Positions 27,854 through 52,471 of a stretch of 64,000 bases of DNA are shown here, piece by piece. The stretch spans positions 1 through 64,000 of the forward strand of contig NZ_JAVESS010000013.1 of NCBI RefSeq assembly GCF_034006445.1, written 5' to 3'. The first letter of the stretch is position 1. Every line of letters starts with the position of its first letter. Below the pieces are notes generated by a model that worked only from the letters and a program-made list of their open reading frames with translations, did not search any database and was not told the origin of the DNA. The position numbers and the translations under genes were made by a program. Source of the DNA: Desulfovibrio sp. (GTDB lineage Bacteria > Desulfobacterota > Desulfovibrionia > Desulfovibrionales > Desulfovibrionaceae).

Positions 27854-28207
27854 ATGCCGGACCACAACGACGAAAAAACCTACCGCATCGGTGAAGTTGC
27901 GGAACTGCTCAACCTCAAAACCCATGTGCTGCGCTTCTGGGAGACGGAATTTCCCCAGTTGGCGCCTTTGCGCACGGGTAAGGGGCAGCGCCTTTACACC
28001 GAGGAGCATGTGGGCCTTTTGCGGCGCATACGGCAATTGCTGCACGAACAGGGCATGACCATTGAAGGCGCGCGCCGTGTGCTGCAAGGCAGCGCCGTGG
28101 TGGACGAAAGTCTGCCTGAGCGCGTGGCCGCAGTGCCTGACCCGGATTTCATGCGCATGCTCAAACGGGAACTGACGGCGGTGCGCCGCCTGCTCAACGG
28201 CGGCTAG
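27854..28207 (+). CDS. MerR-family transcriptional regulator
   Basis: A 117-aa regulator with a MerR-type winged helix-turn-helix: YRIGEVAELLNLKTHVLRFWETEF, then GQRLYTEEHVGLLRRIRQLLHEQGMTIEGARRVL (about residues 10-70), and a short C-terminal helix instead of a metal or drug-binding domain. MerR-like genes of this small type often follow pheT, where their role is not settled. The ATG at 27854 is supported by the N-terminal match; GGAGGA lies somewhat far upstream (about 14 bases). Its TAG stop overlaps the first bases of a 148-bp repeat element. Confidence 0.88.
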   Translation: MPDHNDEKTYRIGEVAELLNLKTHVLRFWETEFPQLAPLRTGKGQRLYTEEHVGLLRRIRQLLHEQGMTIEGARRVLQGSAVVDESLPERVAAVPDPDFMRMLKRELTAVRRLLNGG

Positions 28208-28353
28208 AGCAATTTAACTTTTAAATTGCTCTGACGGCTGCGTGAGCAGACGTTCGCTACGGAGGCGTAAGCGCAGTTTATCTGCGCGGTTAAACGCCAA
28301 AGTAAGCGTGTCTTAAACTTTGAGAATGTATATTCTCAAAGTTAATCTGCTCT
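28206..28353 (-). repeat. family B/C 148-bp serial-hairpin element, C-type copy
   Basis: The element begins in the merR stop codon with hairpin AGAGCAATTTAAC-to-GTTAAATTGCTCT-like ends (28206-28232), has inner dyads (GCGCAGTTTATCTGCGC near 28271), and ends with AACTTTGAGAATGTATATTC and TCAAAGTT (28316-28343) followed by AATCTGCTCT. Read on the minus strand its two ends match the copies at 33411 and 52324, and its length is the same, but the middle is different. Confidence 0.7.
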
Positions 28354-28389
28354 AGGGAAACGCTGATTTATTCCGTTTGACGGCGTTGC
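28354..28389 (+). repeat. family D repeat, 5' fragment
   Basis: AGGGAAACGCTGATTTATTC followed by CGTTTGACGGCGTTGC matches the left 35 bases of the copy at 14477 and stops abruptly. It directly abuts the 148-bp element. Confidence 0.75.
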
Positions 28390-28485
28390 GACACTTTTAC
28401 CGCTTGCGGCCAAAGAACAGGCGGCAACCACGGACGGCAGAAATCGCCAAGATTCCGCCTTCGTGAAAACAAGCAGAATACCCAC

Positions 28486-29214
28486 ATGATTTTATCACCT
28501 TCGCTGCTTTCCGCCGATTTTTCGCGTCTGGCCGAAGAGCTGAACGCTCTTGAAGCCGCCGGAATCTCCTGGCTGCACCTTGACGTGATGGACGGCGCCT
28601 ATGTGCCCAACATTACCTTTGGTCCCCCGCTGATCAAGGCCCTCAGGCCTGGCAGCGGGCTTTTTTTTGACGTACACCTCATGGTGCAGGACCCGTCCCG
28701 CTATATCCGCGATTTCAGAGACGCGGGGGCCGACATGCTGGTCATCCATGCCGAGGCCGACCGCCACCCGCAGCGCACCCTTTCGGCCATACGCGACATG
28801 GGCTGCAAGGCGGGCGTGGCCCTGAATCCCGGCACGGATCTCGGCGCCATACGCTGGCTCGTCGATGATATGGACATGCTGCTCATCATGAGCGTCAACC
28901 CCGGTTTTTCCGGTCAGGCGTTCATTCCGGCCACCTTTGACAAAATCCGCTCTGCCCGCCGTCTGCTGGACGCCTGTGGCCGCGAGGACGTGCTCATTCA
29001 GGTGGACGGCGGCGTATGCCCCGAAAACACGGCCCAGCTGGTGGAAGCCGGGGCCGACGTCCTTGTGTCCGGTTCGGCCTTTTTCGGGCACAAACCCTAC
29101 GACGCGCGTCTGGCTGCCTTTATGGCTCCCCTGGCCGGGCACGAACCACGCCCCGCCGTGCGGGCTGCCGCACAGCGTCAGCCTGCAGCCGATACCCATC
29201 CCAAGCAAAAATAG
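28486..29214 (+). CDS. rpe: ribulose-phosphate 3-epimerase
   Basis: Rpe (242 aa) interconverts ribulose-5-phosphate and xylulose-5-phosphate in the non-oxidative pentose phosphate pathway. The TIM-barrel motifs are complete: ILSPSLLSADFSRL, HLDVMDGAYVPNITFGPP, DVHLMVQDP, LLIMSVNPGFSGQAF and QVDGGV. About 22 extra residues (Ala/Arg/Gln-rich) extend past the normal C-terminus. The stop is 10 bp before tkt, the next enzyme of the pathway, so co-transcription is expected. The ribosome site is weak. Confidence 0.96.
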   Translation: MILSPSLLSADFSRLAEELNALEAAGISWLHLDVMDGAYVPNITFGPPLIKALRPGSGLFFDVHLMVQDPSRYIRDFRDAGADMLVIHAEADRHPQRTLSAIRDMGCKAGVALNPGTDLGAIRWLVDDMDMLLIMSVNPGFSGQAFIPATFDKIRSARRLLDACGREDVLIQVDGGVCPENTAQLVEAGADVLVSGSAFFGHKPYDARLAAFMAPLAGHEPRPAVRAAAQRQPAADTHPKQK

Positions 29215-29224
29215 AGGAATGAAC

Positions 29225-31225
29225 ATGCCTACCCGTAGACAGTGCGCCAACGCCATCCGCGCCCTTGCCATGGACGCCATTGAAAAAGCCCGCTCCGGCC
29301 ATCCCGGCGCACCCCTCGGCATGGCCGATATGGCCGAGGCCCTCTGGCGGCACGGATTCAGGCACAATCCCGCCAATCCCCTGTGGTTCAACCGCGATCG
29401 CTTTATCCTGTCCAACGGGCATGCCTCCATGCTGCTGTACGCCCTGCTGCACCTCACGGGCTATGATCTGCCCATGGACGAAATTCGCAATTTCCGCCAG
29501 TGGGGGGCCAAAACCGCCGGACACCCCGAATACGAGCCGCACATGGGCATTGAAATGACCACTGGCCCCCTGGGTCAGGGCATTGCCTCCGCCGTGGGCT
29601 TCGCCCTGGCAGAAAGCATGCTGGCCGCCCAGTTCAATACGCCCGAGCATACGGTGGTGGATCACCACACCTACGCCTTTTTGGGCGACGGCTGCCTTAT
29701 GGAAGGCGTGTCGCACGAGGCCTGCTCCCTGGCTGGCACCTGGGGCCTCGGCAAGCTCATTGTCATGTACGATGCCAACGGCATCTCCATTGACGGCAAG
29801 ATCGACGGATGGTTCAACGAGGATGTGGCCGCCCGCTACCGCGCCTACAACTGGCAGGTCATCGGCCCCGTGGACGGCCACGACGCTGCCGCTCTGGACA
29901 AGGCCCTGGCCGAGGCCAAATCCGACACGTCCCGCCCCAGCCTGATCATCTGCCATACCCACATAGGCTTTGGCTCGCCCAAGGCCGATTCTGCCTCCTG
30001 CCACGGCTCCCCTCTGGGTGAAGACGGCATTGCCGCCACGCGCGATGCCCTTGGCTGGCACGAAGCCCCCTTTACCATCCCGCAGGACATCTACACGGCC
30101 TGGAGCGCCCGCGACGCTGGCAAAGCCGCCGAAGCCGCCTGGAACGCGCGCTTTGACGCCTATGCCAAGGCCCATCCCCAACTGGCCGCCGAACTGACCC
30201 GTCGCATGCAGGGCAAGCTGCCCGCCGACTGGGCCGCCATAGCCGCCGGTGCCCTGCAGGACGCCATCAGCAAGGGCGAAAGCATCGCCACCCGCGTTGC
30301 CTCCAAAAAAACGCTTGAGTACCTTGTGCCGCGTCTGCCCGAACTGGCGGGCGGCTCCGCTGACCTCACCGGCTCTGTGGGCACGTATACGTCTTCCTCC
30401 GTGCATATGGACGTGAAGGAGCACACGGGCAACTACATTTCCTACGGCGTGCGCGAATTCGGCATGAGCGCCATCATGAACGGCCTTGCCCTGCACGGCG
30501 GCTTCATCCCCTACGCCGGAACATTCCTGGCCTTTGCCGATCAGGCCAAGAACGCCCTGCGTCTTGCGTCCATCATGGGCATCCGTGTAATCTGGGTGCT
30601 GACCCACGACTCCATCGGCGTGGGCGAAGACGGCCCCACACACCAGCCCGTGGAACAGCTTGGCATGCTGCGGCTTATGCCCAATTTCAACCTCTGGCGG
30701 CCCTGCGACGCGGTGGAAACCGCCGCCGCCTGGATCTGCGCGCTGGAAAGCGTCCACACGCCTTCCGGCCTGTCCCTTTCGCGCCAGAACCTGCCCTTCT
30801 GCCCGCGCAGCGAGGCGCAGGTGGCGGCCATCGCCCGTGGCGGATACGTGCTGCGCGACTGCCAAGGCACGCCCGAGATCATCATCATGGCCACCGGCTC
30901 CGAAGTGGGCCTGGCCCTTGAAACCGCCGAACAGCTTGCCGCCGACGGCCGCAAGGCGCGCGTCGTGTCCATGCCCTGCGCTGAAGTGTTTGACGCCCAG
31001 AGCGCCGAATACAAGGAAAGCGTGCTGCCGCGCGCCGTGCGCGCCCGCCTGGCCATTGAAGCCGCCGCCAGCGACTGGTGGGGCAAATACGTGGGCCTGG
31101 ACGGCGCGGTCATCGGCATGGAAGGCTTTGGCGCATCTGCCCCCGGCAAGGTGGTTTTTGAACGCCTCGGCTTTACCGTGACCAACGCTCTGGAAAAGGC
31201 CCGCGCCCTCATGGGCCGCATCTGA
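29225..31225 (+). CDS. tkt: transketolase
   Basis: Transketolase (666 aa) moves two-carbon units between sugar phosphates using thiamine diphosphate. Motifs are SGHPGAPLGMADMAEALW, the diphosphate-binding GDGCLMEGVSHEA and NGISIDG, and DSIGVGEDGPTHQPVEQL in the pyrimidine domain. GAGGA lies six bases before the ATG at 29225 (MPTRRQ); an ATG two codons earlier is too close to it. Length is normal. It lies between rpe and pgk. The last five codons are followed by a second copy of the same 15 bp, including another in-register stop-like TGA. Confidence 0.96.
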   Translation: MPTRRQCANAIRALAMDAIEKARSGHPGAPLGMADMAEALWRHGFRHNPANPLWFNRDRFILSNGHASMLLYALLHLTGYDLPMDEIRNFRQWGAKTAGHPEYEPHMGIEMTTGPLGQGIASAVGFALAESMLAAQFNTPEHTVVDHHTYAFLGDGCLMEGVSHEACSLAGTWGLGKLIVMYDANGISIDGKIDGWFNEDVAARYRAYNWQVIGPVDGHDAAALDKALAEAKSDTSRPSLIICHTHIGFGSPKADSASCHGSPLGEDGIAATRDALGWHEAPFTIPQDIYTAWSARDAGKAAEAAWNARFDAYAKAHPQLAAELTRRMQGKLPADWAAIAAGALQDAISKGESIATRVASKKTLEYLVPRLPELAGGSADLTGSVGTYTSSSVHMDVKEHTGNYISYGVREFGMSAIMNGLALHGGFIPYAGTFLAFADQAKNALRLASIMGIRVIWVLTHDSIGVGEDGPTHQPVEQLGMLRLMPNFNLWRPCDAVETAAAWICALESVHTPSGLSLSRQNLPFCPRSEAQVAAIARGGYVLRDCQGTPEIIIMATGSEVGLALETAEQLAADGRKARVVSMPCAEVFDAQSAEYKESVLPRAVRARLAIEAAASDWWGKYVGLDGAVIGMEGFGASAPGKVVFERLGFTVTNALEKARALMGRI

Positions 31226-31281
31226 GTGGGCCGCATCTGACCCTGTTTCGCGCGGGGGTCTGGCCTTGGCCTCCCCCGCGC
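31212..31281 (+). repeat. tandem 15-bp duplication at the tkt stop and following hairpin
   Basis: TGGGCCGCATCTGAG at 31212-31226 is repeated as TGGGCCGCATCTGAC at 31227-31241. A hairpin with arms GCGCGGGGG (31250-31258) and CCCCCGCGC (31273-31281) follows; there is no U-run, so read-through into pgk is likely. Confidence 0.7.
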
Positions 31282-31351
31282 CTCATGCACGCATGGCCCT
31301 CTGGGCCGGTTGCCTCAACGAAATATCTGCAAGCAACAAAGGGAGCGCGCT

Positions 31352-32521
31352 ATGCCTATAAAGAACATGCAGGACCTGGACCTCACAGGCAAAACCGTTG
31401 TTATCCGCGAAGACCTCAATGTGCCCATGAAGGACGGCGAGGTCACCAATGACAAGCGCATCCGCGCTGCCCTGCCCACCATCAAACTGGCGCTGGAAAA
31501 AGGCGCTGGCGTCATTCTGCTTTCGCACCTGGGGCGTCCCACCGAAGGGCAGTATGACGAGCAGTTTTCTCTGGCTCCCGTGGCCGCCTGCCTTGAAAAG
31601 CAGCTTGGCCAGCCCGTAACGCTGGCAAAAACGCTGGACGAGGCCAAAGTACAGCCCGGTCAGGTGGTTCTGCTGGAAAACGTGCGTTTTCTGTCCGGCG
31701 AAAAAAAGAATGATCCCCAGTTGGCCCAAAAACTGGCCGACCTTGGCGACGTATATGTGATGGACGCCTTTGGCGCCGCACACCGCGCCCATGCCTCCAC
31801 CGAGGGCGCTGTACGCGCCGCGCAAGTGGCGTGCGCCGGCCCCCTGCTGCAGGCTGAACTGCAGGCCTTTGAAAAAGTGCTCGACAATCCCGCCCGTCCC
31901 CTGGTCGCCATTATCGGCGGAGCCAAGGTGTCCACCAAGATCGGCCTGCTCGAAAACCTGCTGAACACGGTGGACGTGCTTATCCTTGGCGGCGGCATCG
32001 CCAATACCTTTTTGGCGGCGGCTGGCTACATGGTGGGCAAGTCTCTGTACGAAGAAGATCTGGTGCCTGAAGCCAAAAAAGTTATGGAACAGGCCAAGAC
32101 CCTCAACAAGGAACTTCCCCTGCCCATGGACGTGATCACCGCCGAGGAACTGGCCCCTGGCCAGCACGCCTCGCTGCACGCCGTGGGCGACGTGCCCGGC
32201 GACCAGATGATACTGGACGTGGGCCCCGAAACCCTGACACTCTATGAAAAGTATCTGGCCAAGGCCGCCACTGTGGTGTGGAACGGCCCTGTGGGCGCGT
32301 TCGAAACCGAGCCCTTTGGTGACGGCACCAAGGCCCTGGCCGAATATCTTGGCAATTCCAAGGCCTTTGTGGTCGTTGGCGGCGGTGACAGTGTGGCTGC
32401 CGTGGAAAAATACGGACTTGCCGACCGCATGGGTTACATATCCACAGGCGGCGGCGCGTCCCTTGAGCTGCTTGAAGGCAAAAAACTGCCTTCGGTGGCT
32501 GCCCTGGAGGACCGGGGCTAA
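31352..32521 (+). CDS. pgk: phosphoglycerate kinase
   Basis: Pgk (389 aa) makes ATP from 1,3-bisphosphoglycerate in glycolysis. Signatures are IREDLNVPMKDGEVTNDKRI, LLSHLGRPT, NVRFLSGEKK, the hinge region with IGGAKVSTKIGLLENL, and the nucleotide-binding VVGGGDSVAAVEKYG near the C-terminus. GGGAG lies eight bases before the ATG at 31352. It follows tkt by 126 bp and is followed after only 9 bp by an outer membrane protein gene. Confidence 0.97.
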   Translation: MPIKNMQDLDLTGKTVVIREDLNVPMKDGEVTNDKRIRAALPTIKLALEKGAGVILLSHLGRPTEGQYDEQFSLAPVAACLEKQLGQPVTLAKTLDEAKVQPGQVVLLENVRFLSGEKKNDPQLAQKLADLGDVYVMDAFGAAHRAHASTEGAVRAAQVACAGPLLQAELQAFEKVLDNPARPLVAIIGGAKVSTKIGLLENLLNTVDVLILGGGIANTFLAAAGYMVGKSLYEEDLVPEAKKVMEQAKTLNKELPLPMDVITAEELAPGQHASLHAVGDVPGDQMILDVGPETLTLYEKYLAKAATVVWNGPVGAFETEPFGDGTKALAEYLGNSKAFVVVGGGDSVAAVEKYGLADRMGYISTGGGASLELLEGKKLPSVAALEDRG

Positions 32522-32530
32522 GGTAGTTTA

Positions 32531-33361
32531 ATGAAAAAACGTATATCCTTCGGCGGGCTGGCCTCGGTGACGTTGCTGGCCCTGCTGACGCTGCTGACCA
32601 TTACCCCTGGCACGTCCTTTGCCGCTCCGGCTCAGGAAGCCTGGGAAGAAAACCCCGCTGACGCTGCCGCCCAGGGCGACAAATGGGGCTTCAACACCGG
32701 CCTCGGCGCAAGCCTGCGCACGTCGGAATACAAGGGCATCGACTCCCTCGGTTCTCCGCTTCCCCTTATTGGCTATGAGGGCAAGTGGCTGTACCTGCGC
32801 GGCCTGGACGGCGGCGTGCACGTGTACAGGGATCACTATCAGGAGTTCAACATCCAGCTGTCCTACCTGCCCCAGAACTTCTATGCCTCCTGGAGCGACA
32901 ACAGCAGGATGAAGCGTCTGGACGACAGGTATTCCACACTCATGGCCGGCTTGAACTATACGCTGCGCACGCTCTACGGTCAGGCGTCCGCCACGGTGTC
33001 CACAGACATTCTGGGCGTCAACAACGGCATCAAGGCCGACGTTGCCTACGCCTACCCCATGCGCTTCGAAAACGTCATGTTCTCGCCCGCCGTGGGCGTG
33101 CAGTGGACGGACACCAACTACAACGACTATTACTACAGCATCAGTTCCAGCGAATCCCGCGCCAGCGGCTTCAAGGAATACAGCCCCGAAAGCACGTTTT
33201 CACCCTATGCCGGGCTGACCATGCGGGTCATTCTCACCGAGGACTGGAGCGCCGTTGCCAATGCCAAGGCGCTCTTTCTCGGCAACGAGATTACCGACAG
33301 CCCCATGGTGGAACGCACCACAACGTATTCCTTCAGCGCTGGCTTGCTGTACGCATTTTAG
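32531..33361 (+). CDS. MipA/OmpV-family outer membrane protein
   Basis: A 276-aa protein with a signal peptide (basic MKKR, hydrophobic core, TSFA before APAQ) and a C-terminal pattern of alternating polar and hydrophobic residues ending in LLYAF, as for an outer-membrane beta-barrel. YEGKWLYLRGLDGGVHVYRD, FSPAVGVQWTDTNYNDYYY and TFSPYAGLTMRVILTEDW match the MipA/OmpV family, named for the MltA-interacting protein that scaffolds murein enzymes. AAGG precedes the ATG. Its place 9 bp after pgk suggests shared transcription. Confidence 0.85.
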   Translation: MKKRISFGGLASVTLLALLTLLTITPGTSFAAPAQEAWEENPADAAAQGDKWGFNTGLGASLRTSEYKGIDSLGSPLPLIGYEGKWLYLRGLDGGVHVYRDHYQEFNIQLSYLPQNFYASWSDNSRMKRLDDRYSTLMAGLNYTLRTLYGQASATVSTDILGVNNGIKADVAYAYPMRFENVMFSPAVGVQWTDTNYNDYYYSISSSESRASGFKEYSPESTFSPYAGLTMRVILTEDWSAVANAKALFLGNEITDSPMVERTTTYSFSAGLLYAF

Positions 33362-33383
33362 TGTAAGGGTTGGTTAGGTTAGA

Positions 33384-33597
33384 ATGCTGTGTGGGGGAGG
33401 GACCCTCCTTAGACCAGATTTACTTTGAAATGCTTCACATTTCAAAGTAGTCATTCTGCAGAAAATGCGATTTTCGGCAGAATCCACGCCACGTTGTGGC
33501 GCGCTGCACTCTCGTGCAGCGTTAGAGCATTTAACTTTTTTCAAAGTTTAAATGCTCTAAAAAGGGTCTCCTCCCCCACGCCCCCACCCCCTAAAAC
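33384..33597 (+). repeat. family A repeat, copy split by a 148-bp insertion
   Basis: The left half ATGCTGTGTGGGGGAGGGAC (to CCT at 33406) and the right half AAAAGGGTCTCCTCCCCCAC with the CCCCCTAAAAC edge (33558-33597) form one family A element whose central TTTTGC loop is interrupted. It starts 22 bp after the stop codon of the outer membrane protein gene, like the uninterrupted copies relative to their genes. Confidence 0.8.
33411..33558 (+). repeat. family B/C 148-bp serial-hairpin element, B-type copy 1
   Basis: It starts AGACCAGATTTACTTTGAAA and ends TTTAAATGCTCTA. Hairpins in order: TACTTTGAAATG/CATTTCAAAGTA, ATTCTGC/GCAGAAT (around AGAAAATGCGATTTTCG), GCCACGTTGTGGC, GCTGCAC/GTGCAGC, and AGAGCATTTAAACT-type terminal stem. 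The copy at 52324 has the same length and nearly the same sequence. Confidence 0.85.
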
Positions 33598-33873
33598 TTT
33601 TATTGTATTTTAGTATATTATAAGGCTTTTTCTGTTCTGAATGGACGGGACAAAAGACGAGCCTTTCAGCCTTCACATCCAGGCATTTTGCCGTGTGTTT
33701 CACGGCAAACTGGCGCGCATGTTCACCACAAACGAAAAAACGCGCTGACCGCCAGCTTCTTTCCCCTCCGGCAGTCATGCCATAGCTGCCATGCCCGCAC
33801 GCGGAGCACGATGGCAGTACCGCCAAAATCCGCACCGCACAGGCCAGGTACTGGCACAGGCAGGAAAGACCGC

Positions 33874-34857
33874 ATGTCTGAAAAAAACGGCACAGCGCGG
33901 CAAACACAAGACCGCCGCAGCGCCCCGGCCCGGAACACCGAGGATAAAACCCAGCCACCGCCCTGGGCCGCGCCCCCCGCGAGCGGTACACCGTGGGGAC
34001 GTTACGCTGTGGGCGTGTTTTTCAGCGTCATATGGAGTTCGGCATTCATCGCGGGCAAGGTGGTCGTGATGGAAATGGGGCCGTTCGCCACCCTGTTTTA
34101 CCGTTTTACACTGACCGTGCTGGTGCTTCTGCTGTTTTGCGGCAAAAAGCTCCTTGGCCCAGAGGGCAGGCAGGCCATGCTGCCAGGGATGCTTCTTGGC
34201 CTGCTCAATAACGTGGTCTACCTGGGCCTGAGTTTTTCCGCCCTGCGCTATCTGGCCGCCTCATGGGTCGTCATCGTGGTTTCCTGCGCGCCCTTCATGA
34301 CCATGGCCCTGGCGGCCCTGCGCGGTCAGGAGTCTTTTGACAAAAGAAAACTGCTGGGACTCACCGTGGCCTTTGCCGGGGTAGTCGTCATGGTGGGCAT
34401 TACGGGCCTGCACGAAGGCGCTGGCCTTGGGCTTGGCATGGCCATCGCCGCCACGCTGGCCTTCTCGGTTGGCGCAGTGCTCTTTCGCGGCAAGTATGAC
34501 GCCCTGTCCCTGCTTTCGCTGAACTTCTGGATGACTCTTTGCGGCATGCTCTGCTTTGCCCCCGCCGCCTTCATGACCACGGCAAACCCTTTGCACATCA
34601 CCTGGCCCGCCCTGGCCGCGCTGCTGTGGCTGGTAGTGGTCAGCCTGGCGGGCATGGCGCTGTGGCTGCTGCTCATACGTACGCAAGGCCCCTCCATGGC
34701 CGCTTCCTACAACATGCTCAACCCCCTTTCGGGACTGGCGCTCTCCGCCCTGCTCCTCGGCACTGCCATCGGCGTGCAGGATGTCATGGGCGCTGCGGCC
34801 ATCGTGGCAGGGCTGTATGTGGCCCTGCGCCCAGGACAAGCCCCGAAAACGACGTAA
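33874..34857 (+). CDS. EamA/DMT-family transporter
   Basis: A 327-aa inner-membrane protein with a 40-residue charged N-terminal tail and about ten hydrophobic helices arranged as two EamA repeats (about 45-180 and 190-320). SVIWSSAFIAGKVVVMEMGP and FATLFYRFTLTVLVLLL open the first repeat; the last helices have LNPLSGLALSALLLG. Family members export metabolites such as amino acids, but the substrate is unknown. AGGAAAG lies before the ATG at 33874. It appears monocistronic. Confidence 0.88.
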   Translation: MSEKNGTARQTQDRRSAPARNTEDKTQPPPWAAPPASGTPWGRYAVGVFFSVIWSSAFIAGKVVVMEMGPFATLFYRFTLTVLVLLLFCGKKLLGPEGRQAMLPGMLLGLLNNVVYLGLSFSALRYLAASWVVIVVSCAPFMTMALAALRGQESFDKRKLLGLTVAFAGVVVMVGITGLHEGAGLGLGMAIAATLAFSVGAVLFRGKYDALSLLSLNFWMTLCGMLCFAPAAFMTTANPLHITWPALAALLWLVVVSLAGMALWLLLIRTQGPSMAASYNMLNPLSGLALSALLLGTAIGVQDVMGAAAIVAGLYVALRPGQAPKTT

Positions 34858-35178
34858 CCACGCCGTCGGGTACGCCATCGGGTACGCCATCAGCACGCCA
34901 TCGGCCACGTCGTCGGCCACGCCATCAGGCTCGCCTGTATCAAACAAGCCCCTCTTGCTTTTTTTCTGTGACAGCATAGACTTTGAGAAAATATTCTCAA
35001 AGTCTATTGCTATTCATTACACCTCACAACTATTTAAATACACAGAACTTTTAATCTTCCAAGGCGTTTGCGCTCACAGGTGACAGAGCAGTTCCACCTT
35101 GCATTAGGCCGTGGAGTTGATACGCTCAGTTTGAAAATAGTTTTCAATTAATCCCCATTTCCAAACCAGGAGAAATCC
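34858..35178. other. intergenic region with degenerate tandem units and a 30-bp palindrome
   Basis: 34860-34935 has five to six degenerate copies of an ACGCCATCGGGT-like unit, probably just low complexity. An AT-rich palindrome TAGACTTTGAGAA/TTCTCAAAGTCTA covers 34977-35006. The remainder to 35178 is AT-rich and should hold the promoter of the following gene. No gene is supported. Confidence 0.5.
34977..35006. repeat. TTGAGAAT-type palindrome
   Basis: TAGACTTTGAGAAAA and TATTCTCAAAGTCTA pair with one mismatch over 15 bp. Closely similar palindromes lie at 28316-28343, 47824-47845 and 54064-54083, all in gaps between genes. Confidence 0.65.
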
Positions 35179-44501: not shown

Positions 44502-44556
44502 AAAAACATAGCAAACCATGCCTGCACGGCCACACTGCTTCGCCGTCAGGCACAAT

Positions 44557-44711
44557 AAGGAAGCACTGATTAAAGGGCCTCCAGGAAACGAGCTGGTATT
44601 TCCTTTGGCAAGGCGCGATCCTTTTTTGAAGCAGGAGTGGACTCTTCCGTCCTCGACTGTTTCAAAAAAAGTGAAGCAAGTCCGCCAAAAGGAATAAATC
44701 AACGTTTCCTA
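44557..44711 (-). repeat. family D MITE-like repeat, copy 2
   Basis: Full-length copy inverted relative to 14477: begins TAAGGAAGCACTGATTAAAG, has the central TTTTTTGAAGCAG/CTGTTTCAAAAAAA stem and ends AATAAATCAACGTTTCCTAA. It occupies the gap between the debranching enzyme and glycosyltransferase genes, about 100 bp before the latter. Confidence 0.85.
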
Positions 44712-44810
44712 AAGCGAAATGTTCGAACAGGAGCGGGGAAGAGTTGTGGCGGCCGACAGGAACGGCCGCTGAATCCGGCGGGAGAATCTCCGCCGCATGA
44801 GGGAGAACAC

Positions 44811-46169
44811 ATGCGAGTGCTTATGTTCGGCTGGGAGTTCCCACCTCACATCAGCGGAGGTCTGGGCACGGCCTGCTTTGGCATGACCCAGGCTCTGGCC
44901 CGCAGGGGAGCGGAAATAATCTTTGTACTGCCCCGTATCGACGACAGCAAGGGGAAAGGGGAATTTCTGCGTCTGCGTTCGGCATCCGGAACTCCCATCA
45001 CTCAAGACCTGGTACAGCGCATGAACTGGGCGCAACAGGAAGTCTGGCGCAACGGCATACGCTGCCTGCCGGTGGACAGTCCGCTCATGCCCTATCTCAC
45101 CCCGCAGGACTACGTCAGCGCACTGGGCCGCCTCAGCGGCCGCACCTGCGCGGGAGAGCCGTATTGCCTGACACCGCGCCAGACGGGGGAAGAAGAGTCC
45201 CATCAATCCAGATCCTTCACCTATTCGCTGCAAGGCGGATACGGCCCCAGCCTTATGGACGAGGTGCTGCGTTACAGCCGCCTTTCCGCAGCCCTGGCTG
45301 TTCAAGAAGACTTTGACGTTATCCACGCCCATGACTGGATGACCTATCCAGCGGGCATGCTGGCCAAAACCCTCACGGGCAAACCCCTTGTTGTCCATAT
45401 CCACGCCACCGAATACGACCGCAGCGGAAGCGACATCAACGAGCAGGTGGCGGGCATTGAACGGGCGGGCATGCTGGCCGCCGATGTGGTGGTGGCCGTG
45501 AGCCGCCTTACCCGCAAAACCGTCATCGAACGCTACGGCATCCCCCCGGAAAAGGTCATGGTCGTACACAACGCCGTGGCCCGCCACGAGGCCCAGCGCC
45601 ATTATCCCATCCCGCCGCGCATACGGCACGAAAAGCGCGTGCTGTTTCTGGGCCGCGTCACCTTTCAGAAAGGGCCGGAATATTTCATGGAAGCCGCACG
45701 GCTGGTGCTGCAAAAAATCCCCAACGTGCGCTTTTTCATGGCTGGCAGCGGCGACATGCTGCCACGCCTCATCCGCAGGGCCGGGCAGTTGCGCATGGGC
45801 AGCCGCTTCCACTTTGCCGGCTTCCTGCAGGGGGAGGAGGTGGACCGCATGTTTGCCCTCAGCGATCTCTACGTCATGCCGTCGGTTTCCGAACCCTTCG
45901 GCATAACGCCCCTTGAGGCCATGCTCTACGACGTTCCTGTACTGCTCTCACGTCAATCGGGCGTATCCGAAGTGCTGCAACACGCCCTTAAAGCCGATTT
46001 CTGGGATACCCGCGACATGGCCGACAAAATCTGCGCCGTTCTGCGCTACCCCTGCCTGGCGGCTGAACTGGTGAAAAACTGCCGCGAAGAAATGAAGTCC
46101 ATCCGTTGGGAAAATGCCGCCGACCAGTTGCTGGCCATTTACCACAACGTACACGGAGGTCGCTCATGA
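44811..46169 (+). CDS. glycosyltransferase, glycogen synthase-like (GT4/GT5)
   Basis: A 452-aa GT-B glycosyltransferase. The N-terminal domain begins MRVLMFGWEFPPHISGG, the sugar-nucleotide loop typical of bacterial starch/glycogen synthases; DVIHAHDWMTYPAGML and VHIHATEYDRSG follow. The C-terminal domain has RVTFQKGPEYFMEAA and the E-x7-E segment SVSEPFGITPLEAMLYDVP. It could elongate glucan from ADP- or UDP-glucose, or make a related disaccharide or glucan. GGGAG lies before the ATG at 44811. Its stop overlaps the GH57 start by four bases. Confidence 0.88.
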   Translation: MRVLMFGWEFPPHISGGLGTACFGMTQALARRGAEIIFVLPRIDDSKGKGEFLRLRSASGTPITQDLVQRMNWAQQEVWRNGIRCLPVDSPLMPYLTPQDYVSALGRLSGRTCAGEPYCLTPRQTGEEESHQSRSFTYSLQGGYGPSLMDEVLRYSRLSAALAVQEDFDVIHAHDWMTYPAGMLAKTLTGKPLVVHIHATEYDRSGSDINEQVAGIERAGMLAADVVVAVSRLTRKTVIERYGIPPEKVMVVHNAVARHEAQRHYPIPPRIRHEKRVLFLGRVTFQKGPEYFMEAARLVLQKIPNVRFFMAGSGDMLPRLIRRAGQLRMGSRFHFAGFLQGEEVDRMFALSDLYVMPSVSEPFGITPLEAMLYDVPVLLSRQSGVSEVLQHALKADFWDTRDMADKICAVLRYPCLAAELVKNCREEMKSIRWENAADQLLAIYHNVHGGRS

Positions 46170-47689
46170 CAGCCATATGCCTGTGCTATGAGGTTCACGA
46201 ACCTTACCAGCTGCGCCGCTATACGGTTTTTGATATGGGTCAGAATTCCATTTATGAAGACGATGACCACAACTGCGATGCCATGCTGCGCGCGGCACGC
46301 CTGTGCTACCTGCCCGCCAATGAGCTTATGCTCAAGCTCATCCGCCGCTACGGCAAGGACTTTCGCGTGTCCTACGCCATTTCGGGCACAGTCCTTGACC
46401 TCTTTGAGCAGTACGTTCCTGAAGTGCTTGAAAGCTTTACGGCCCTGGCGCAAACGGGCTGCGTGGAATTTGTGGCCGAAACCGCGCCGCATTCCCTGGC
46501 CTTTCTCTATTCCCGCCAGGAGTTTGACCGCCAGGTGCAGGCACAGGCGTCCCGCCTGAAAAAGCTCTTCGGCGTCAAGCCCGTGACCTTCAAGCATACG
46601 GAATGCGTGTACAACAACGACCTCGCCGCCGCTGTGGCCGAACTCGGCTTCAAGGCCGTGCTGGCCGAAGGCACGGATCAGGTGCTGGGCTGGCGCAGCG
46701 CCAACTACCTGTACCAGCCCGTCAGCGCTCCGGAACTTGGCCTGCTGCTGCGCAACACCAGCCTTTCCAACGACATAGGCCTGCGTTTTTCCGACACGGC
46801 CTGGCCCGCATGGCCCCTTACGGCCGACACCTTTGCCTCCTGGTGCCACGGCCTGGCCGATTCGGCCGATGTCATCAATATCATCAACGATTATCATGTG
46901 TTCGGCCTGCGTCACAGCAGGGAATCGGGCATTTTTGACTTTCTGGAAGCCCTGCCGGAGGCCCTGCTGGCCCACAATGATTTTCACTTCGCCACGCCCG
47001 CCATGGCGGTCAAACAATTCAAGCCTGTGGGCAAGATGGACATCCCCCAGTTCATATCCTGGGAGGACGAGAGCGGCGACCTCACCGCGTGGCTTGGCAA
47101 CGACATGCAAAAAGACGCCATACACGCCCTCTACGCCCTTGCCTCACGGGTGGATCGCAGCGGATCAGCCGAACTGCGCCACGATTTCGACAGGTTGCAG
47201 ACCGCCGACCACTTCCGCCACATGTCCACCAAGTGGTTTTCCAGCGAGGCCCCGGACAGGCCAAGCCCCTTTGGCAGCCCCTATGACGCCTACATCACCT
47301 TCATGAACGTGCTGGCGGACTTTGAAATGCGCCTCAAGGCCGTTGAAGAACAGCAAAAGGCTCCCGACCCGGCCAAGGCTGCACCGGCCAAAACAGCCCC
47401 GGTAAAGCCTGGCCCGGCAAAAAGCCGCACAGGCCAAAGCCCCAAAACGCAGCCCAAAACTGCGAAAAAAGCGCCGGGCAAAGCACAGGCGTCCAGCAAG
47501 GAAACAGCAGGGGGCAAAAAGCCCGTGACGGGCGCAAAAGCAGTGCCAGCCAAAAAGGCAGAGCCTGCCAAAAAGACGGAGCCAAACCCAAAAACTGCAG
47601 CGGGCAAGAAAAAAGCCGCCGCCAAGGGCACGGCCACCACAAAAGAAAACAAGCCCGCCGCTTCGCCCGCAGGAGCGGATCAACCTTGA
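46166..47689 (+). CDS. glycoside hydrolase family 57 protein with Lys/Ala/Pro-rich tail
   Basis: A 507-aa protein. Residues 1 to about 395 form a GH57 (alpha/beta)7 barrel; probable nucleophile Glu146 is in FKHTECVYNND and probable acid Asp242 in NIINDYHVFG. Family members are alpha-amylases, 4-alpha-glucanotransferases or branching enzymes. Residues 395-507 are a very basic, low-complexity tail of PAK, KKA and GKK units like histone H1 tails, with no catalytic role expected. ACGGAGG precedes the ATG, which overlaps the glycosyltransferase stop, so the two are coupled. Confidence 0.88.
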   Translation: MTAICLCYEVHEPYQLRRYTVFDMGQNSIYEDDDHNCDAMLRAARLCYLPANELMLKLIRRYGKDFRVSYAISGTVLDLFEQYVPEVLESFTALAQTGCVEFVAETAPHSLAFLYSRQEFDRQVQAQASRLKKLFGVKPVTFKHTECVYNNDLAAAVAELGFKAVLAEGTDQVLGWRSANYLYQPVSAPELGLLLRNTSLSNDIGLRFSDTAWPAWPLTADTFASWCHGLADSADVINIINDYHVFGLRHSRESGIFDFLEALPEALLAHNDFHFATPAMAVKQFKPVGKMDIPQFISWEDESGDLTAWLGNDMQKDAIHALYALASRVDRSGSAELRHDFDRLQTADHFRHMSTKWFSSEAPDRPSPFGSPYDAYITFMNVLADFEMRLKAVEEQQKAPDPAKAAPAKTAPVKPGPAKSRTGQSPKTQPKTAKKAPGKAQASSKETAGGKKPVTGAKAVPAKKAEPAKKTEPNPKTAAGKKKAAAKGTATTKENKPAASPAGADQP

Positions 47690-47823
47690 GAGCACACAAA
47701 GGCCACGGCACGCCCGTGACGGCGCTCATCTGCGGGGATGTCCCGCGTGAGCGTCTTCACGGCAAGCGCCTGCGCATCCTGCCGCCAGCCCGCGTTCACG
47801 CGCCGGGCGGGCGTCTTGGAAGC

Positions 47824-47845
47824 ATTGGGAATGGATATTCTCAAT
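47824..47845. repeat. TTGAGAAT-type palindrome
   Basis: ATTGGGAATGGATATTCTCA followed by AT. Preceded by GCGGGCGTCTTGGAAGC, a flank also found (inverted) next to the palindrome at 54064, and followed by GAAAATGCTCTA, resembling the terminal end of the 148-bp elements. Confidence 0.6.
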
Positions 47846-47955
47846 GCGAAAATGCTCTAATATGGCCAGTGAAACAGCACTCGAACGCCCCCCAACATGA
47901 AAGGGCCACCCCCCACAGTCGTGGCCCTTACTGATATCTTGAGCAAGGAGATGAC

Positions 47956-50900
47956 ATGGACTTCAATTCCTCCCTGGTAACCCTGTTTGAAGTGAGCTGG
48001 GAAGTCTGCAACAAGGTGGGCGGCATTCACTCTGTCGTCACCAGCAAGGCCCTTCAGGCCGTGGAGCACTTCGGCGAAGACTACTTTCTTCTGGGCCCGG
48101 CCCTGAAAGAGAATCCCGGCTTTGAAGAAACCGACGAGCACGCCTGGGACTCCCTGCGCATAGGTCTTGCCACCCGTGACCTCAAATGCCGCCTGGGCCG
48201 CTGGAACATACCCGGACGCCCCAAGGTCATACTGGTGGAGTTCGACAAGCGCTATGCCAGCAACCAGCTGCTCTTTGAAATGTGGAAAAACTACGGCGTG
48301 GATTCCCTCTCCGGCGGGTGGGACTATATTGAGCCCGTCATGTTCGCCGCGGCCTGCGGTGAAGTCATCGCCGCCGTGCACGAAAGCCGTGTGGTGCCCA
48401 TGCAGGGGCACAGCGTGGCCCTTTTTCATGAATGGATGTGCGCCGCGGGCCTGCTCATGGTCAAAAAGCTCGCGCCGGAGGTGGGCACGGTCTTTACCAC
48501 CCACGCCACCATGCTGGGCCGCGCCCTGGCCGCCACCGGACGCGACATTTACAGCAACATGCGCAACATCAATCCCGCCAACGAAGCAGCGGCGCTGAAC
48601 ATCACGGCCAAATGGTCCATGGAGAGCACCGCCGCGCGCGAGGCCGACGCCTTTACCACCGTCAGCCCCATCACCGGCGAGGAATCCACGGTCTTTCTGG
48701 GCCGCCAGCCCGACGTCATCACCACCAACGGTCTTGATCTGCGCGTCATACCCGACTATTCCGAAGACCGCAGCGTGCCCTCGGCCTCGCGGGCAAAGAT
48801 AATGGAAGCCGCAGGCCGCTTTTTGCGCGGCCCCCTGCCGGATCACACCCGTATCTTCATCATTTCAGGCCGCTACGAGATGCACAACAAGGGCGTGGAC
48901 ATCTTTCTGGACGCCCTGGCCCAGGCCGACCGCAACCTGTCCGGCACCGAGACCTCCATTCTGGTGCTCTGCATGGTCATGGGCGGCCACACGGGCGTCA
49001 ACCCGGCGGCCGTGTCCGGCGACCCGGCTGAAACGGACAACGGCCAGCCCTTCATCTGCACCCATTATGTGTGGAACGCCCCGCAGGATCCCATTATCAG
49101 CGCCTGCCGCCGCCTCGGACTCAACAACAGTCCTGAGCGACGCATCAAGGTGATCTTTGTGCCCGCCATGCTTGACGGGCATGACGGATTTTTGAACATG
49201 CCCTACGAAGAAATCCTGGCCGCCTGCGATGTGGGCTTCTTCCCCTCCTGGTACGAGCCATGGGGCTATACGCCGCAGGAAAGCGCGGCCTGGGCCGTGC
49301 CCACGCTCACCACCGACCTTTCGGGCTTCGGCATGTGGGCCAGGGAAAAGATGAAGGAAGAGGGCATGGATCACAGGGGCGTCTACGTCATGCCCCGGCG
49401 CGGCATGAACTTTGAGCAGAGCGCCAAAGTGCTGCACGAAAAAGTGCTTGTTGCCGCCACCTGCGCTGCCGAGGACATGCACTCCTGGCGCGGTTACGCC
49501 CGCGCCCTGGCCGAAAAAACATCCTGGAGTTATTTTTTCGATAACTATGTTAAGGCATTCAATATAGCTCTCACCAAGTCCGAAACCCGCGCCGATCACG
49601 ACGCAGGGCACGGCGCGCTCACACGGGTGCTCACGGCCTCCTGCTCGGCCACACCCTTTCTGCGCCCCATCATGGCAGTGGCCGAAGTGCCCCGCGAGCT
49701 TGCCCGCCTGCGCGAACTCGCCCAGAACATCTGGTGGTGCTGGCACGACTACGCCAAGGCCCTGTTCATGGCCCTGAACCCCCAGTTGTGGGAAGCCTGC
49801 CGCAATCCGCTGAGAATGCTTGAAGAGGCATGGCCCGCCCGCTTCAAGGAGCTCATGGCCAACGAAGAATACATGGACATGTACCACAGGGTGATGGAGA
49901 GCTTTGACGCCTATATGGCCGAACCCATCCGCTCCCTCAGTCAGGACGTGACGCCCGAACACCCCATTGTCTACTTTTCCACGGAATACGGGCTCAACGA
50001 GTCCATACCCATCTATTCCGGCGGCCTTGGCGTTCTTTCCGGCGACCACCTCAAATCCGCCTCGGACATGGCCCTGCCGCTGATAGGCATCGGCCTGCTC
50101 TACAAGAGCGGCTACTTCATGCAGGAGATCGATTCCAACGGTCGCCAGGTGGCCCAGTACCCCATCAACAACTTTGCCCAGATGCCCATAAAGCAGATGC
50201 AGGATGCCTTTGGCGAAGACATCTATGTGCAGCTTGAACTGCCGGGGCGCATCCTCTTCGCCCGCGTGTGGCGGCTGCAGGTGGGCCGGGTGACCCTCTT
50301 CCTTATGGATACGGACACCCCCCGCAACACCGATGAAGACCGCCGCATCACAGACCGCCTCTACGAGGCCAACCGCGAAACCCGGCTGCTGCAGGAAATT
50401 CTGCTGGGCCAGGGCGGCATGCGCCTTTTGCGGACCCTGGACATCATCCCCAGCGTCTACCACATGAACGAAGGGCATTCGGCCTTCATGGCGCTTGAAA
50501 GAGTACGCGACTGCATGACGCAGGGCATGGACCATGACGAAGCCATGACGCGCGTGCGCTCCAACACGCTCTTTACCACCCATACCCCCGTGTCGGCGGG
50601 CAACGAAGCCTTCTCTCTCGAACTTATGGGCCGCTATTTCACCGGCATGGCGCAAGGCCTGAACCTTTCGTGGCAGCAGTTTGTCAAACTGGGGCAGATC
50701 GAGGGCGGCGACAGCCAGTCCTTTGAAATGACCGTGCTGGCCCTGCGCCTTTCCTGCTGGGCCAACGGCGTCAGCCGCCTGCACGGCATCGTTTCCCGCC
50801 ACATGTGGAACAAGTTGTGGAAGGGCCTGCCCACGGCCGAAACGCCCATAGGGCACGTCACCAACGGCGTGCATACCCCCTCCTACGTGGGCAGCTGGAT

Positions 50901-52212
50901 GCACGAGTTGCTGCTCAAGCACCTTGGCTCCGGCTGGATGCAGTCCCAGCCCGGCGCTGATACATGGGACAAGGTGGACGGAATCCCCGACGAAGCCTTC
51001 TGGGCTGCACGCCAGAACCAGAAAGAAGCCCTGCTCGACGCCCTGCGCAAGCGGGTTCCCGTCTTTGCCCAGCGCTTCAAGCTGGACCCCGACACCCGCA
51101 AGAATATGGAGGCCCTGCTCAAGCCGGAAACACTCATTATCGGCTTTGCCCGGCGGTTTGCGCCCTACAAGCGCGCCACCCTGCTTTTTGCCGATCCCGA
51201 CCGCCTGGCGCGCATTCTCAACAATCCCGACCGCCCTGTGGTGCTGGTCTTTTCCGGCAAGGCGCACCCTGCGGATGAGGCAGGCATAAACCTCATCCAG
51301 GAAGTCATGCGCATGTGCCAGGATCAACGCTTTCTGGGGCGCATCTTCTTTCTCGAAAACTACAGCCTGTCCGTGTCGCGGCTCATGTCGCAGGGCTGCG
51401 ACGTCTGGCTCAACACGCCCCGCCGCCCCCACGAGGCTTCGGGCACCAGCGGCATGAAACTGCCCGTCAACGGCGGCGTGAACCTGAGCATCTCCGACGG
51501 CTGGTGGTGCGAGGGCTACAACAGGCAAAACGGCTGGACCATCGGCCCCGTGGTCACCAATGAACTGCCCAGCAGCGAGCAGAACGACTACATCGATGCC
51601 GAATCACTGTACGGCCTGCTGGAAAATGCCGTGCTGCCCCTGTACTTTGAACGCAGCCAGAACGGCCTGCCCACACAGTGGATAGCCATGGCCAAGCGCT
51701 CCCTCAAAAGCCTTACCGCCATGTACAGCAGCAACCGCATGCTCAATGACTACATCCGTCAGTACTATTTGCGGGCCGCACGCCGCCGCAGCATGCTGGC
51801 CGAAAACGACTGGGCCGCCTGCCGCCAGCTTGCCGCCTGGGCAAAAGACCTGCCCGCCCGGTTCGGCACCATCAAGGTGGAGGAAATGCTCATCAGCGGC
51901 GTGGAGAACAATACAATGATCTGCGGCGAGCCTGTGAGCGTTCGTCTGCATATCGACATCGGCGAAATGCAGCCCGAAGAAATCCTGGCCCAGCTTGTCA
52001 TCGGCCGCGCGCTCATTGACGGCAACTTCATTGACAAACCCGAAATACTGCGGCTTGAACCCCGCACCTCGGACAATGGCAATGGAGGCAAAACCTACTC
52101 TGCCACCTACATACCCACGCACAGCGGACAGTACCGCTACGGCGTTCGCATCATGCCCTTCCATAAAGACCTGGCCTCGCCGCTTGAAACGGGCCTCGTC
52201 CTGTGGGCCTAG
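47956..52212 (+). CDS. fused GT3-type glycogen synthase and GT35 alpha-glucan phosphorylase
   Basis: A 1418-aa two-enzyme protein. Residues 1 to about 545 resemble eukaryote-type (GT3) glycogen synthase: LFEVSWEVCNKVGGIHSV, HEWMCAAGLL, FTTHATMLGRALA, and the E-x7-E active-site pair Glu434/Glu442 in WYEPWGYTPQES. Residues from about 570 form a short-type alpha-glucan phosphorylase: FSTEYGLNESIPIYSGGLG, HMNEGHSAFMALE, TTHTPVSAGNEAF, and ASGTSGMKLPVNGGV with the pyridoxal-phosphate lysine at Lys1168. About 110 C-terminal residues form a beta-rich end. Both active sites look intact, so one chain could build and degrade alpha-1,4-glucan. The ATG follows AAGGAGATGAC. It is the last of the glycogen genes. 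Confidence 0.92.
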   Translation: MDFNSSLVTLFEVSWEVCNKVGGIHSVVTSKALQAVEHFGEDYFLLGPALKENPGFEETDEHAWDSLRIGLATRDLKCRLGRWNIPGRPKVILVEFDKRYASNQLLFEMWKNYGVDSLSGGWDYIEPVMFAAACGEVIAAVHESRVVPMQGHSVALFHEWMCAAGLLMVKKLAPEVGTVFTTHATMLGRALAATGRDIYSNMRNINPANEAAALNITAKWSMESTAAREADAFTTVSPITGEESTVFLGRQPDVITTNGLDLRVIPDYSEDRSVPSASRAKIMEAAGRFLRGPLPDHTRIFIISGRYEMHNKGVDIFLDALAQADRNLSGTETSILVLCMVMGGHTGVNPAAVSGDPAETDNGQPFICTHYVWNAPQDPIISACRRLGLNNSPERRIKVIFVPAMLDGHDGFLNMPYEEILAACDVGFFPSWYEPWGYTPQESAAWAVPTLTTDLSGFGMWAREKMKEEGMDHRGVYVMPRRGMNFEQSAKVLHEKVLVAATCAAEDMHSWRGYARALAEKTSWSYFFDNYVKAFNIALTKSETRADHDAGHGALTRVLTASCSATPFLRPIMAVAEVPRELARLRELAQNIWWCWHDYAKALFMALNPQLWEACRNPLRMLEEAWPARFKELMANEEYMDMYHRVMESFDAYMAEPIRSLSQDVTPEHPIVYFSTEYGLNESIPIYSGGLGVLSGDHLKSASDMALPLIGIGLLYKSGYFMQEIDSNGRQVAQYPINNFAQMPIKQMQDAFGEDIYVQLELPGRILFARVWRLQVGRVTLFLMDTDTPRNTDEDRRITDRLYEANRETRLLQEILLGQGGMRLLRTLDIIPSVYHMNEGHSAFMALERVRDCMTQGMDHDEAMTRVRSNTLFTTHTPVSAGNEAFSLELMGRYFTGMAQGLNLSWQQFVKLGQIEGGDSQSFEMTVLALRLSCWANGVSRLHGIVSRHMWNKLWKGLPTAETPIGHVTNGVHTPSYVGSWMHELLLKHLGSGWMQSQPGADTWDKVDGIPDEAFWAARQNQKEALLDALRKRVPVFAQRFKLDPDTRKNMEALLKPETLIIGFARRFAPYKRATLLFADPDRLARILNNPDRPVVLVFSGKAHPADEAGINLIQEVMRMCQDQRFLGRIFFLENYSLSVSRLMSQGCDVWLNTPRRPHEASGTSGMKLPVNGGVNLSISDGWWCEGYNRQNGWTIGPVVTNELPSSEQNDYIDAESLYGLLENAVLPLYFERSQNGLPTQWIAMAKRSLKSLTAMYSSNRMLNDYIRQYYLRAARRRSMLAENDWAACRQLAAWAKDLPARFGTIKVEEMLISGVENNTMICGEPVSVRLHIDIGEMQPEEILAQLVIGRALIDGNFIDKPEILRLEPRTSDNGNGGKTYSATYIPTHSGQYRYGVRIMPFHKDLASPLETGLVLWA

Positions 52213-52268
52213 GCGGGGAATACGGGATGCACAACCGACCGGCATCGGCGGAGTGCTGTCACGTTGAG

Positions 52269-52323
52269 ATGCTTTGTGGGGGAGGGACCCTTTTGCAAAA
52301 GGGTCTCCTCCCCCACACCCCCC
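52269..52323 (+). repeat. family A intergenic repeat, copy 4
   Basis: ATGCTTTGTGGGGGAGGGAC to the CCCCCACACCCCCC edge, inverted repeat 52276-52316, 57 bp after the stop of the fusion gene and in its sense. A family B element follows directly at 52324. Confidence 0.85.
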
Positions 52324-52471
52324 AGACCAGATTACCTTTGAAATGTTACACATTTCAAAGGGGTCATTCTGCCGGAAATGCGATTTGCGGCAGAATCCAC
52401 GCCACGTTGTGGCGCGCTGCACTCTCGCGCAGCGTTAGAGCATTTAACTTTTTCAAAGGTTAAATGCTCTA
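52324..52471 (+). repeat. family B/C 148-bp serial-hairpin element, B-type copy 2
   Basis: AGACCAGATTACCTTTGAAA to TTAAATGCTCTA, exactly the length of the copy at 33411. Hairpins: CCTTTGAAATG/CATTTCAAAGG, ATTCTGCCG/CGGCAGAAT, GCCACGTTGTGGC, GCTGC(A)C/GCGCAGC and AGAGCATTTAACTTTTTCAA with its AAATGCTCT partner. AAAGTA-type arms here have become AAAGG on both sides, so pairing is kept where the sequence differs. Confidence 0.85.

Follow-up and report, generated by a model that had tools for sequence, protein, structure and literature searches.

The short repeats of this window (64,000 nucleotides of the 3.5 Mb Desulfovibrio genome G000) are very probably non-autonomous MITEs mobilised in trans by a transposase of the IS630 (Tc1/mariner) family, while template switching within their hairpins is much less certain. 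This identity is drawn from the ends of the elements, the flanking TA, orthologous sites that are empty, IS630 elements of relatives with matching ends, and presence/absence differences from the nearest relatives searched (G196 and G169 being the close relatives used). The family is new and of a known kind, namely an IS630-type MITE with several interchangeable hairpin cores.

Common ends, replaceable cores and several lengths

The first-pass annotation had placed three elements in the window, and the ends and hairpins of all three were present where it put them, with bounds that shift slightly once the TA is counted. A subfamily B element lies on the minus strand at 28205-28354 (TA duplications 28205-28206 and 28353-28354 counted in). 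A subfamily A element with an AGACCAG edge lies on the plus strand at 33410-33559 (TA duplications 33410-33411 and 33558-33559), and another plus-strand A element lies at 52323-52471, with its right TA at 52470-52471 and CA where the left TA is expected; the two plus-strand A copies of the window are 92% identical. We also found a degenerate minus-strand copy of the approximately 127-bp subfamily E at 6751-6877, whose far end is approximate.

The terminal inverted repeats (TAGAGCA...TGCTCTA) continue further inward. Subfamilies A, B, C and E of this genome have these ends in common, and other subfamilies occur in relatives. We confirmed that the middle of the B copy is unrelated to that of A, and other subfamilies are mosaic of both, subfamily C being an A/B mosaic. 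The proposal of fixed ends around a replaceable middle therefore holds, given the several subfamilies, the mosaics and a single stop-codon TA that is occupied by B in G000 and by E in G196, with no element in G169. The three subfamilies that were folded (A, B and E) are all made of serial hairpins, with stable predicted folds on both strands.

Further copies with the same ends had been expected in the genome and are plentiful. Exact TAGASCA...TGSTCTA end pairs occur 55 times at a spacing of 135-165 bp and 46 times at 104-134 bp in the 3.5 Mb, compared to 3 and 1 for the respective reversed-pattern controls. Queries with A and with B each returned at least about 40 dispersed copies, mostly full-length, and the family amounts to about 100 copies across many contigs. 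The elements are shorter than 500 bp, dispersed and high in copy number and contain no transposase gene, as is characteristic of MITEs. The A element of the window had no match among the phages or plasmids searched.

The lengths of exact-ended pairs (TA included) were tallied for all 46 short-range pairs, for 50 of the 55 mid-range pairs among the matches listed and for all 5 long-range pairs, some of which overlap each other (e.g. C7:58208/58224 and C3:91556). The distribution peaks at 127 and 150 bp, with 44 pairs at 126-128 bp, 7 at 140 bp, 41 at 148-152 bp, one each at 119, 120, 143 and 165 bp and 5 at 177-195 bp. The constant length claimed at the outset thus survives as the peak at 150 bp and fails against the 127-bp class, which is as common, and the seven pairs at 140 bp. 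Selection on overall size is not supported, as the same ends bound the 127-, 140- and 150-bp classes within one genome.

TA target sites, hairpin repeats and stop codons

Insertion duplicates a TA, and the TA target-site duplication is accompanied by empty orthologous sites. The target context is YTAR, with a pyrimidine 5' of the TA in 114 of 117 copies and a purine 3' of it in 102 of 117. Single-TA empty sites were found in G196 for copies L032 and L036 (a few nearby bases differ at the latter) and in G169 for the B element of the window, where the flanks agree for only about 8 bases past the TA and then diverge; at the same TA, G196 carries an element with a different core. At the place of the A element at 33410-33559 a hairpin repeat is unbroken in both G196 and G169, and downstream flank agreement in G196 at the A site extends for about 40 bases; the short flank matches at some empty sites count against the reading. 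The orthologous stretch of G196 lacks the A element at 52323-52471 and has a rearrangement close by. Two neighbouring copies, L009 and L038, have one TA in common, as expected were the TA part of the target and not of the element.

The A element at 33410-33559 occupies the loop of a terminator-like hairpin repeat on the plus strand, with the left arm at 33391-33410 and the right arm at 33560-33579; an uninterrupted plus-strand copy of the repeat (52276-52316) adjoins the A element at 52323-52471. Both element orientations were found within this same hairpin repeat (L001 and L003). We compared 47 distinct empty and 20 filled copies of the repeat (L014 counted twice among the filled): a TA is present in the loop of 6 of the 47 empty ones, and the TCYTTA of many filled loops in none of them. 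As empty loops mostly have no TA and never TCYTTA, it is possible that the elements spread at these sites by recombination between hairpin repeats.

Stop codons are often occupied: 23 of the 78 G000 elements and 11 of the 26 sampled from G196 (the two genomes that the count covers) are located at one, compared to 88 of the 730 YTAR sites in non-coding DNA. When an element enters the TA of a TAG or TAA stop, TAG is restored, since the duplicated TA is followed by the G with which the element begins. The target TA of the window's B element coincides with the TAG (28205-28207, plus strand) that ends a MerR-family gene at 27710-28207; TAG occupies this alignment column also in G196, G169, G068, G154, G114 and G040, and it was restored here because the first base of the element after the TA is G. 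A count that placed none of 104 elements inside a gene carries no weight here, as insertion itself breaks the gene and hides such cases.

Stem covariation and inverted loops

Covariation was assessed on distinct copies of 147-153 bp only (56 A and 36 B); copies not extending to within 12 nt of both ends were left out, as were those truncated at the edge of a locus and duplicates whose flanks are identical. Since indels of one base separate the A copies, RNAalifold returned a poor structure for the pooled A alignment, and the local hairpins of the consensus were used instead. Changes on both sides of a stem were seen at 18 of 54 pairs in A (8.3 in shuffles) and at 14 of 42 pairs in B (7.3 in shuffles), and the covariation of both is strong against shuffles and slid controls alike. 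Departures on one side exceed those on both sides (221 versus 75 cells in A, 154 versus 36 in B and 88 versus 7 in E), indicating that the stems of inserted copies are decaying.

The strand test counted 24 G.U against 38 A.C events in A (p 0.10), leaning to a minus-strand fold, and 25 G.U against 17 A.C events in B (p 0.28), the opposite leaning, neither of them significant; the near-equality of the pooled counts (49 and 55) masks these opposite leanings, and the test is not clean. By cells, which are not independent, G.U and A.C numbered 6 and 22 in A1, 15 and 31 in A2, 58 and 48 in B and 35 and 20 in E. Inverted loops were found by script in 5 of 56 copies at A hairpin 1 and, read off the alignment columns, in 4 of 56 at A hairpin 4; A hairpin 2 yielded one by script and two further by eye, and E hairpin 2 one in 17. 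B hairpin 3, where automatic extraction took the wrong arms, was left out of the loop count, and three flagged loops at B hairpin 1 were not counted since this 4-nt loop is almost its own reverse complement.

Both-sided stem changes together with fully inverted loops are proposed footprints of template switching during replication (PMC8794818). The inverted loops and the lack of an established strand preference suggest that the matched stem changes may have arisen by DNA template switching within hairpins and not by RNA selection. That study concerns RNA genes, whereas the footprints here lie in mobile DNA repeats; in its rRNA data, significance was reached by 'loop inversion only' but not by 'compensatory change plus loop inversion' on its own (PMC8794818). 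The combined claim that the hairpins evolve mainly by template switching, with stems kept and loops inverted, and that stop codons have become a preferred refuge is tentative, and we rate it somewhat below an even chance.

An alternative explanation, only slightly less probable than that combined claim, is that the elements are IS630-type MITEs whose stems covary through selection at the DNA level, cruciforms or single-stranded hairpins being useful in transposition or replication. It would produce the same covariation with no established strand preference and agrees with the serial hairpins of A, B and E alike; however, the inverted loops are the proposed template-switch footprint (PMC8794818), and the excess of one-sided departures speaks against it.

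Much less probable are structured RNAs, which the first-pass annotation had raised as a possibility, or processing or termination signals, under selection for both their fold and a size of about 148 nt. The stem covariation and the folds predicted on both strands fit such a role, as does the leaning of A to a minus-strand fold. That leaning is not significant, however, and B leans the other way. The several lengths and unrelated cores, the loops inverted in several hairpins, the two orientations within one hairpin repeat and the absence of elements from orthologous sites of close relatives all count against it, and no Rfam family reached its gathering score in the window apart from two tRNAs. 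We set this explanation aside on the lengths, empty sites and inverted loops; the strand test alone is indecisive, and individual copies may still have an RNA role.

IS630 elements and comparable repeat families

Of the 30 IS630 loci examined, six, which come from four other genomes of the family, contain a unit of 988-998 bp with TAGAGCA-type ends. Judged by its sequence, the 998-bp unit L140:1-998 is an IS630-family element with a DDE transposase: its second frame scored 119.1 bits to NF033545 (cut-off 100) and 111.9 bits to PF13358 (DDE_3; cut-off 28.6), and its first frame 40.8 bits to NF033545. It has TA at both ends, the left one being the first bases of the locus with its flank unseen. 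Its left end is identical to the right end of the A copy L024 over 22 of 22 nt and agrees with the right end of the A copy in the window itself at 21 of 22. Together with the TA duplication and the empty sites, these matching ends support the earlier idea that the elements are mobile and are transposed via their ends. Two further units from end pairing, of 1182 bp (L068) and 888 bp (L079), were rejected, as their frames were not recognised as transposases by inspection.

REP-like elements that depend on a Y1 transposase of the IS200/IS605 type would likewise be palindromic, dispersed and high in copy number, but are very improbable given the TA on both sides, the single TA at empty sites and the ends common to IS630 elements; to our knowledge, neither Y1 transposition nor REP/RAYT elements duplicate the target. 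MITEs that belong to a different DDE family with a TA target, for instance IS5, are equally improbable: PF01609 transposases, some of them presumably IS5-like, occur in genomes of the genus, but G000 had no PF01609 match and none of 30 loci, several cut by contig ends, had this inverted repeat around a transposase.

For the preferred IS630-type MITE, transposition in trans and its enzymology are inferred. An IS630-family transposase would bind the terminal repeats (GAGCA..., or TAGAGCA with the target), excise the element and insert it into a TA in YTAR context, duplicating the TA. Different hairpin-filled cores could be amplified behind common ends because the ends alone would be needed, and the palindromic stems may, much less certainly, owe their upkeep to template switching within each hairpin during replication rather than to RNA selection. 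Searches of G000, G196, G169 and G068 turned up no IS630 transposase, although insertions differ between G000 and G196. IS630 presence did not visibly track MITE number over 21 genomes (assessed without a statistic), and the IS630 element had no match among the plasmids searched. The transposase was probably lost later or came from an unsampled source.

Nezha MITEs are linked to an IS630/Tc1-mariner element. They belong to cyanobacteria, another phylum, are named among bacterial MITEs in PMC3733652, and are likened to the present family by description and not by sequence. PMC3049150 and PMC2229807 describe the pneumococcal RUP as a short, AT-rich, non-autonomous repeat of 107 bp in about 110 copies, which resembles our family in its IS630-like terminal repeats and TA in the target. 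IS630-Spn1 is common in the same species as RUP, whereas the Desulfovibrio family has no resident IS630 transposase found and also differs by its serial hairpins and several cores. Correia/NEMIS elements of Neisseria likewise have TA at their ends and classes of about 107 and 155 bp, but the two sizes represent a single sequence in which a 50-bp segment is either present or missing (PMC2229807), whereas the Desulfovibrio cores are unrelated or mosaic. ISY100 of Synechocystis (IS630/Tc1/mariner), in vitro, inserted almost exclusively at TA and duplicated it (PMC2170065); it is autonomous and is likened by mechanism, not by sequence.

The family explains many unannotated palindromic repeats in these Desulfovibrio genomes, and its insertions are usable as markers of strain history. 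It also raises the question of how MITEs keep inserting in lineages in which their transposase is not found. Covarying stems commonly count as strong evidence for a functional RNA, yet here a mobile DNA repeat covaries strongly and carries marks that fit a DNA-copying cause, making the family both a warning and a test case for the discovery of RNAs by covariation. If this cause is true, the roughly 100 copies would be a natural experiment in strong stem covariation without RNA function.

Copies, ends and target sites

The three elements of the window were confirmed at the positions reported in the first-pass annotation. Counting the duplicated TA at both ends, a subfamily B element lies on the minus strand at window 28205-28354 and a subfamily A element on the plus strand at 33410-33559; a second A element, whose left TA reads CA, occupies 52323-52471 (plus strand). 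The A and B queries each returned at least about 40 copies in the source genome (G000; 3.5 Mb, 44 contigs), mostly full-length among the matches listed. The end pattern TAGASCA...TGSTCTA gave 55 pairs of 135-165 bp (3 for the reversed pattern), 46 of 104-134 bp (1 reversed) and 5 of 166-196 bp (1 reversed), counts that include a few overlapping pairs. Across the family, it was matched in 50 of the 199 genomes drawn, from 20 of 44 genera. Most of these matched just once or a few times, at about the level of the control, and those clear of the control were G087 (69), G000 (55), G196 (48), G169 (19), G056 (11), G019 (10) and G026 (10). Desulfovibrio sp. MES5 and D. cuneatus were among the named records with copies, while the A element had no match among phage or plasmid records.

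By their ends the elements are a transposon, and the earlier suggestion of a mobile element moved by its ends is upheld by the YTAR context, by tandem copies and by empty orthologous sites. In the fetched loci, the base 5' of the TA was a pyrimidine in 114 of 117 copies and the base 3' a purine in 102 of 117, and the tandem copies L009 and L038 have a single TA common to both. Sixty loci (L001-L060) were compared with 400 kb sampled from the close relative G196, in which both flanks were present for 10 (matched pieces 89-98% identical). There, the L032 site is precisely empty with one TA, and so is the L036 site apart from a few base differences close by. At L001 and L005 a terminator-like hairpin repeat is retained without the miniature inverted-repeat transposable element (MITE), and L011, L016 and L029 are without the MITE at sites otherwise changed too. 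The MITE of L040 is common to both genomes, a different element sits at the same TA at L031, and L034 was left uncalled as filled or empty.

Elements at stop codons and in hairpin loops

The target TA of the B element (window 28205-28207) lies within the TAG that ends a MerR-family gene (27710-28207), and this stop codon is restored because the element begins with G. Three states of this site were found: a bare TA in G169 (where the match after the TA runs for only about 8 bases before diverging), a 127-bp element E in G196 and element B in G000. Upstream of the same gene (window about 27664-27680), G169 holds a B-type copy (L186 7388-7535), G000 has none and G196 has about 200 extra bases. 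At 49 of 176 boundaries of the fetched A, B and E copies, the element's own TAG terminates an open frame of 100 codons or more, compared to 7 and 10 for the other two frames; insertion-broken genes would be expected equally in all three. Elements were at a stop codon in 23 of 78 cases in G000 (binomial p 3e-5) and 11 of 26 in the G196 sample (p 1e-4), compared to 88 of 730 non-coding YTAR sites from 464 kb, with genes called by a simple, crude codon-usage gene finder. Either insertion preference or selection may account for this excess.

A dispersed terminator-like hairpin repeat, GTGGGGGAGGGACCC...GGGTCTCCTCCCCCAC (window 33391-33579 and 52276-52316; L001-L025), carries in its loop at least 18 A-type copies, mostly with an AGACCAG edge. 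Among 47 distinct empty loops, TA is present in 6 and the TCYTTA of many filled loops in none. Given this scarcity, the target may be an uncommon type of loop; alternatively, recombination between hairpin repeats may have spread the filled loops.

Length classes, cores and stem changes

Subfamilies A and B have common ends and cores that are not shared. In the 140-bp subfamily C, the core is 82% identical to the A core (55/67) and the right end resembles that of B (26/29), and subfamily D of genome G087 is likewise a mosaic. The replaceable middle noted in the first-pass annotation therefore holds, via whole subfamilies and via mosaics; the constant length of 148 bp does not, because several length classes coexist with longer copies bearing inserted repeats. 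Exact-ended pairs in G000, TA included, fall at 126-128 bp (n=44), 140 bp (n=7) and 148-152 bp (n=41), a tally that takes in 50 of the 55 end-pattern places of 135-165 bp. The 127-bp class E looks young, judging from its numerous near-identical copies. Several longer copies have another repeat lodged within a hairpin. In B and C elements, a second short repeat (containing GCCATCCGTAAGGCTTCTTCGTCGCCTAACGGCTGCCGC) interrupts the right terminal hairpin at its loop (flanks of L029, L046 and L058; G196 sample 229170, 245724 and 263488; G000:C2:369243), and the second hairpin of A elements holds other inserted repeats, GAGCTTTAGCCGTTGCGACGAAGGAAGCTACGG among them (G000:C1:99618-99794; L065, L072 and L074; G196 sample 76331 and 242237). 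Repeats beginning AGGGAAACGCTGATTTATTCCG and AAGGAAGCACTGATTAAAGAGCC often adjoin the MITE TA (flanks of L031, L032, L036, L049, L053, L054 and L056).

Both-sided stem changes occurred in 18 of 54 pairs in A (56 copies; 8.3 in shuffles) and 14 of 42 in B (36 copies; 7.3 in shuffles); some of the stem and loop events counted may go back to common descent. Slid controls had a far lower share of paired cells and a far lower covariation score. Several hairpins also have inverted loops, exact or near-exact reverse complements of the usual loop: 5 of 56 copies for A hairpin 1, 4 of 56 for A hairpin 4, one by script and two by eye for A hairpin 2, and 1 of 17 for E hairpin 2. Matched stem changes together with inverted loops are proposed footprints of replication template switching in passages of PMC8794818, and we judge template switching slightly more probable than DNA-level selection as the process that maintains the stems. 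Stem covariation would ordinarily suggest an RNA function. Selection on an RNA from one strand should make G.U tolerated above A.C on that strand; the departures established no such strand preference in A (24 G.U vs 38 A.C events, p 0.10) or B (25 vs 17, p 0.28), although one may exist. Pooling (49 vs 55 events) masks the opposite leanings of A and B; their cell counts lean as the events do, and E leans towards G.U (35 vs 20 cells).

Candidate mobiliser and known relatives

The proposed mobiliser is an IS630 (Tc1/mariner)-family transposase. Its Pfam domain, DDE_3, had no match in G000 and was present in 9 of 21 other, hand-picked genomes. Of 30 fetched loci, 6 (from G026, G056, G087 and G146) contain a unit of 988-998 bp bounded by TAGAGCA-type ends, many of the remaining loci being cut by contig ends; L144, L145 and L152 each have one end with a single mismatch among its first six bases. 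Two overlapping frames are encoded by L140 (1-998): one shows weak helix-turn-helix matches, and the other gives a DDE protein exceeding the NCBIfam IS630 cut-off. The left end of L140 is identical over 22 nt to the right end of the A copy L024, and all 12 MITE ends compared agreed with an IS end at no fewer than 17 of 22 positions, of which the first six or seven agree because of how the ends were picked out. The L140 DDE protein had no match (E up to 1) in G000, G196, G169, G068 or G019, so that the insertions missing from G196 sit in a genome without a detected mobiliser. An IS4/IS5-type mobiliser (PF01609) was rejected, with no match in G000 and no such ends at the 30 PF01609 loci of relatives examined, several of them cut by contig ends. 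Contig 1 of the relative G215 has 58 PF01609 matches, probably copies of one IS since most are equal in score.

Passages of PMC3049150 and PMC2229807 describe RUP with IS630-Spn1 as an IS630-linked MITE with TA targets, and a passage of PMC2170065 reports TA insertion by the IS630-class transposase of ISY100 in vitro. No IS630-linked MITE of Desulfovibrio was found in titles and abstracts, a coverage that mostly leaves aside subscription journals; the sole paper combining all three terms of one search concerns, by its title, pogo-like elements (PMC7325037). In the main text of a 2024 review of prokaryotic MITEs (PMC10969869), the terms Desulfovibrio, IS630 and stop codon are all absent. We file the elements as a new family of an already known kind, the IS630-linked MITEs with TA targets.
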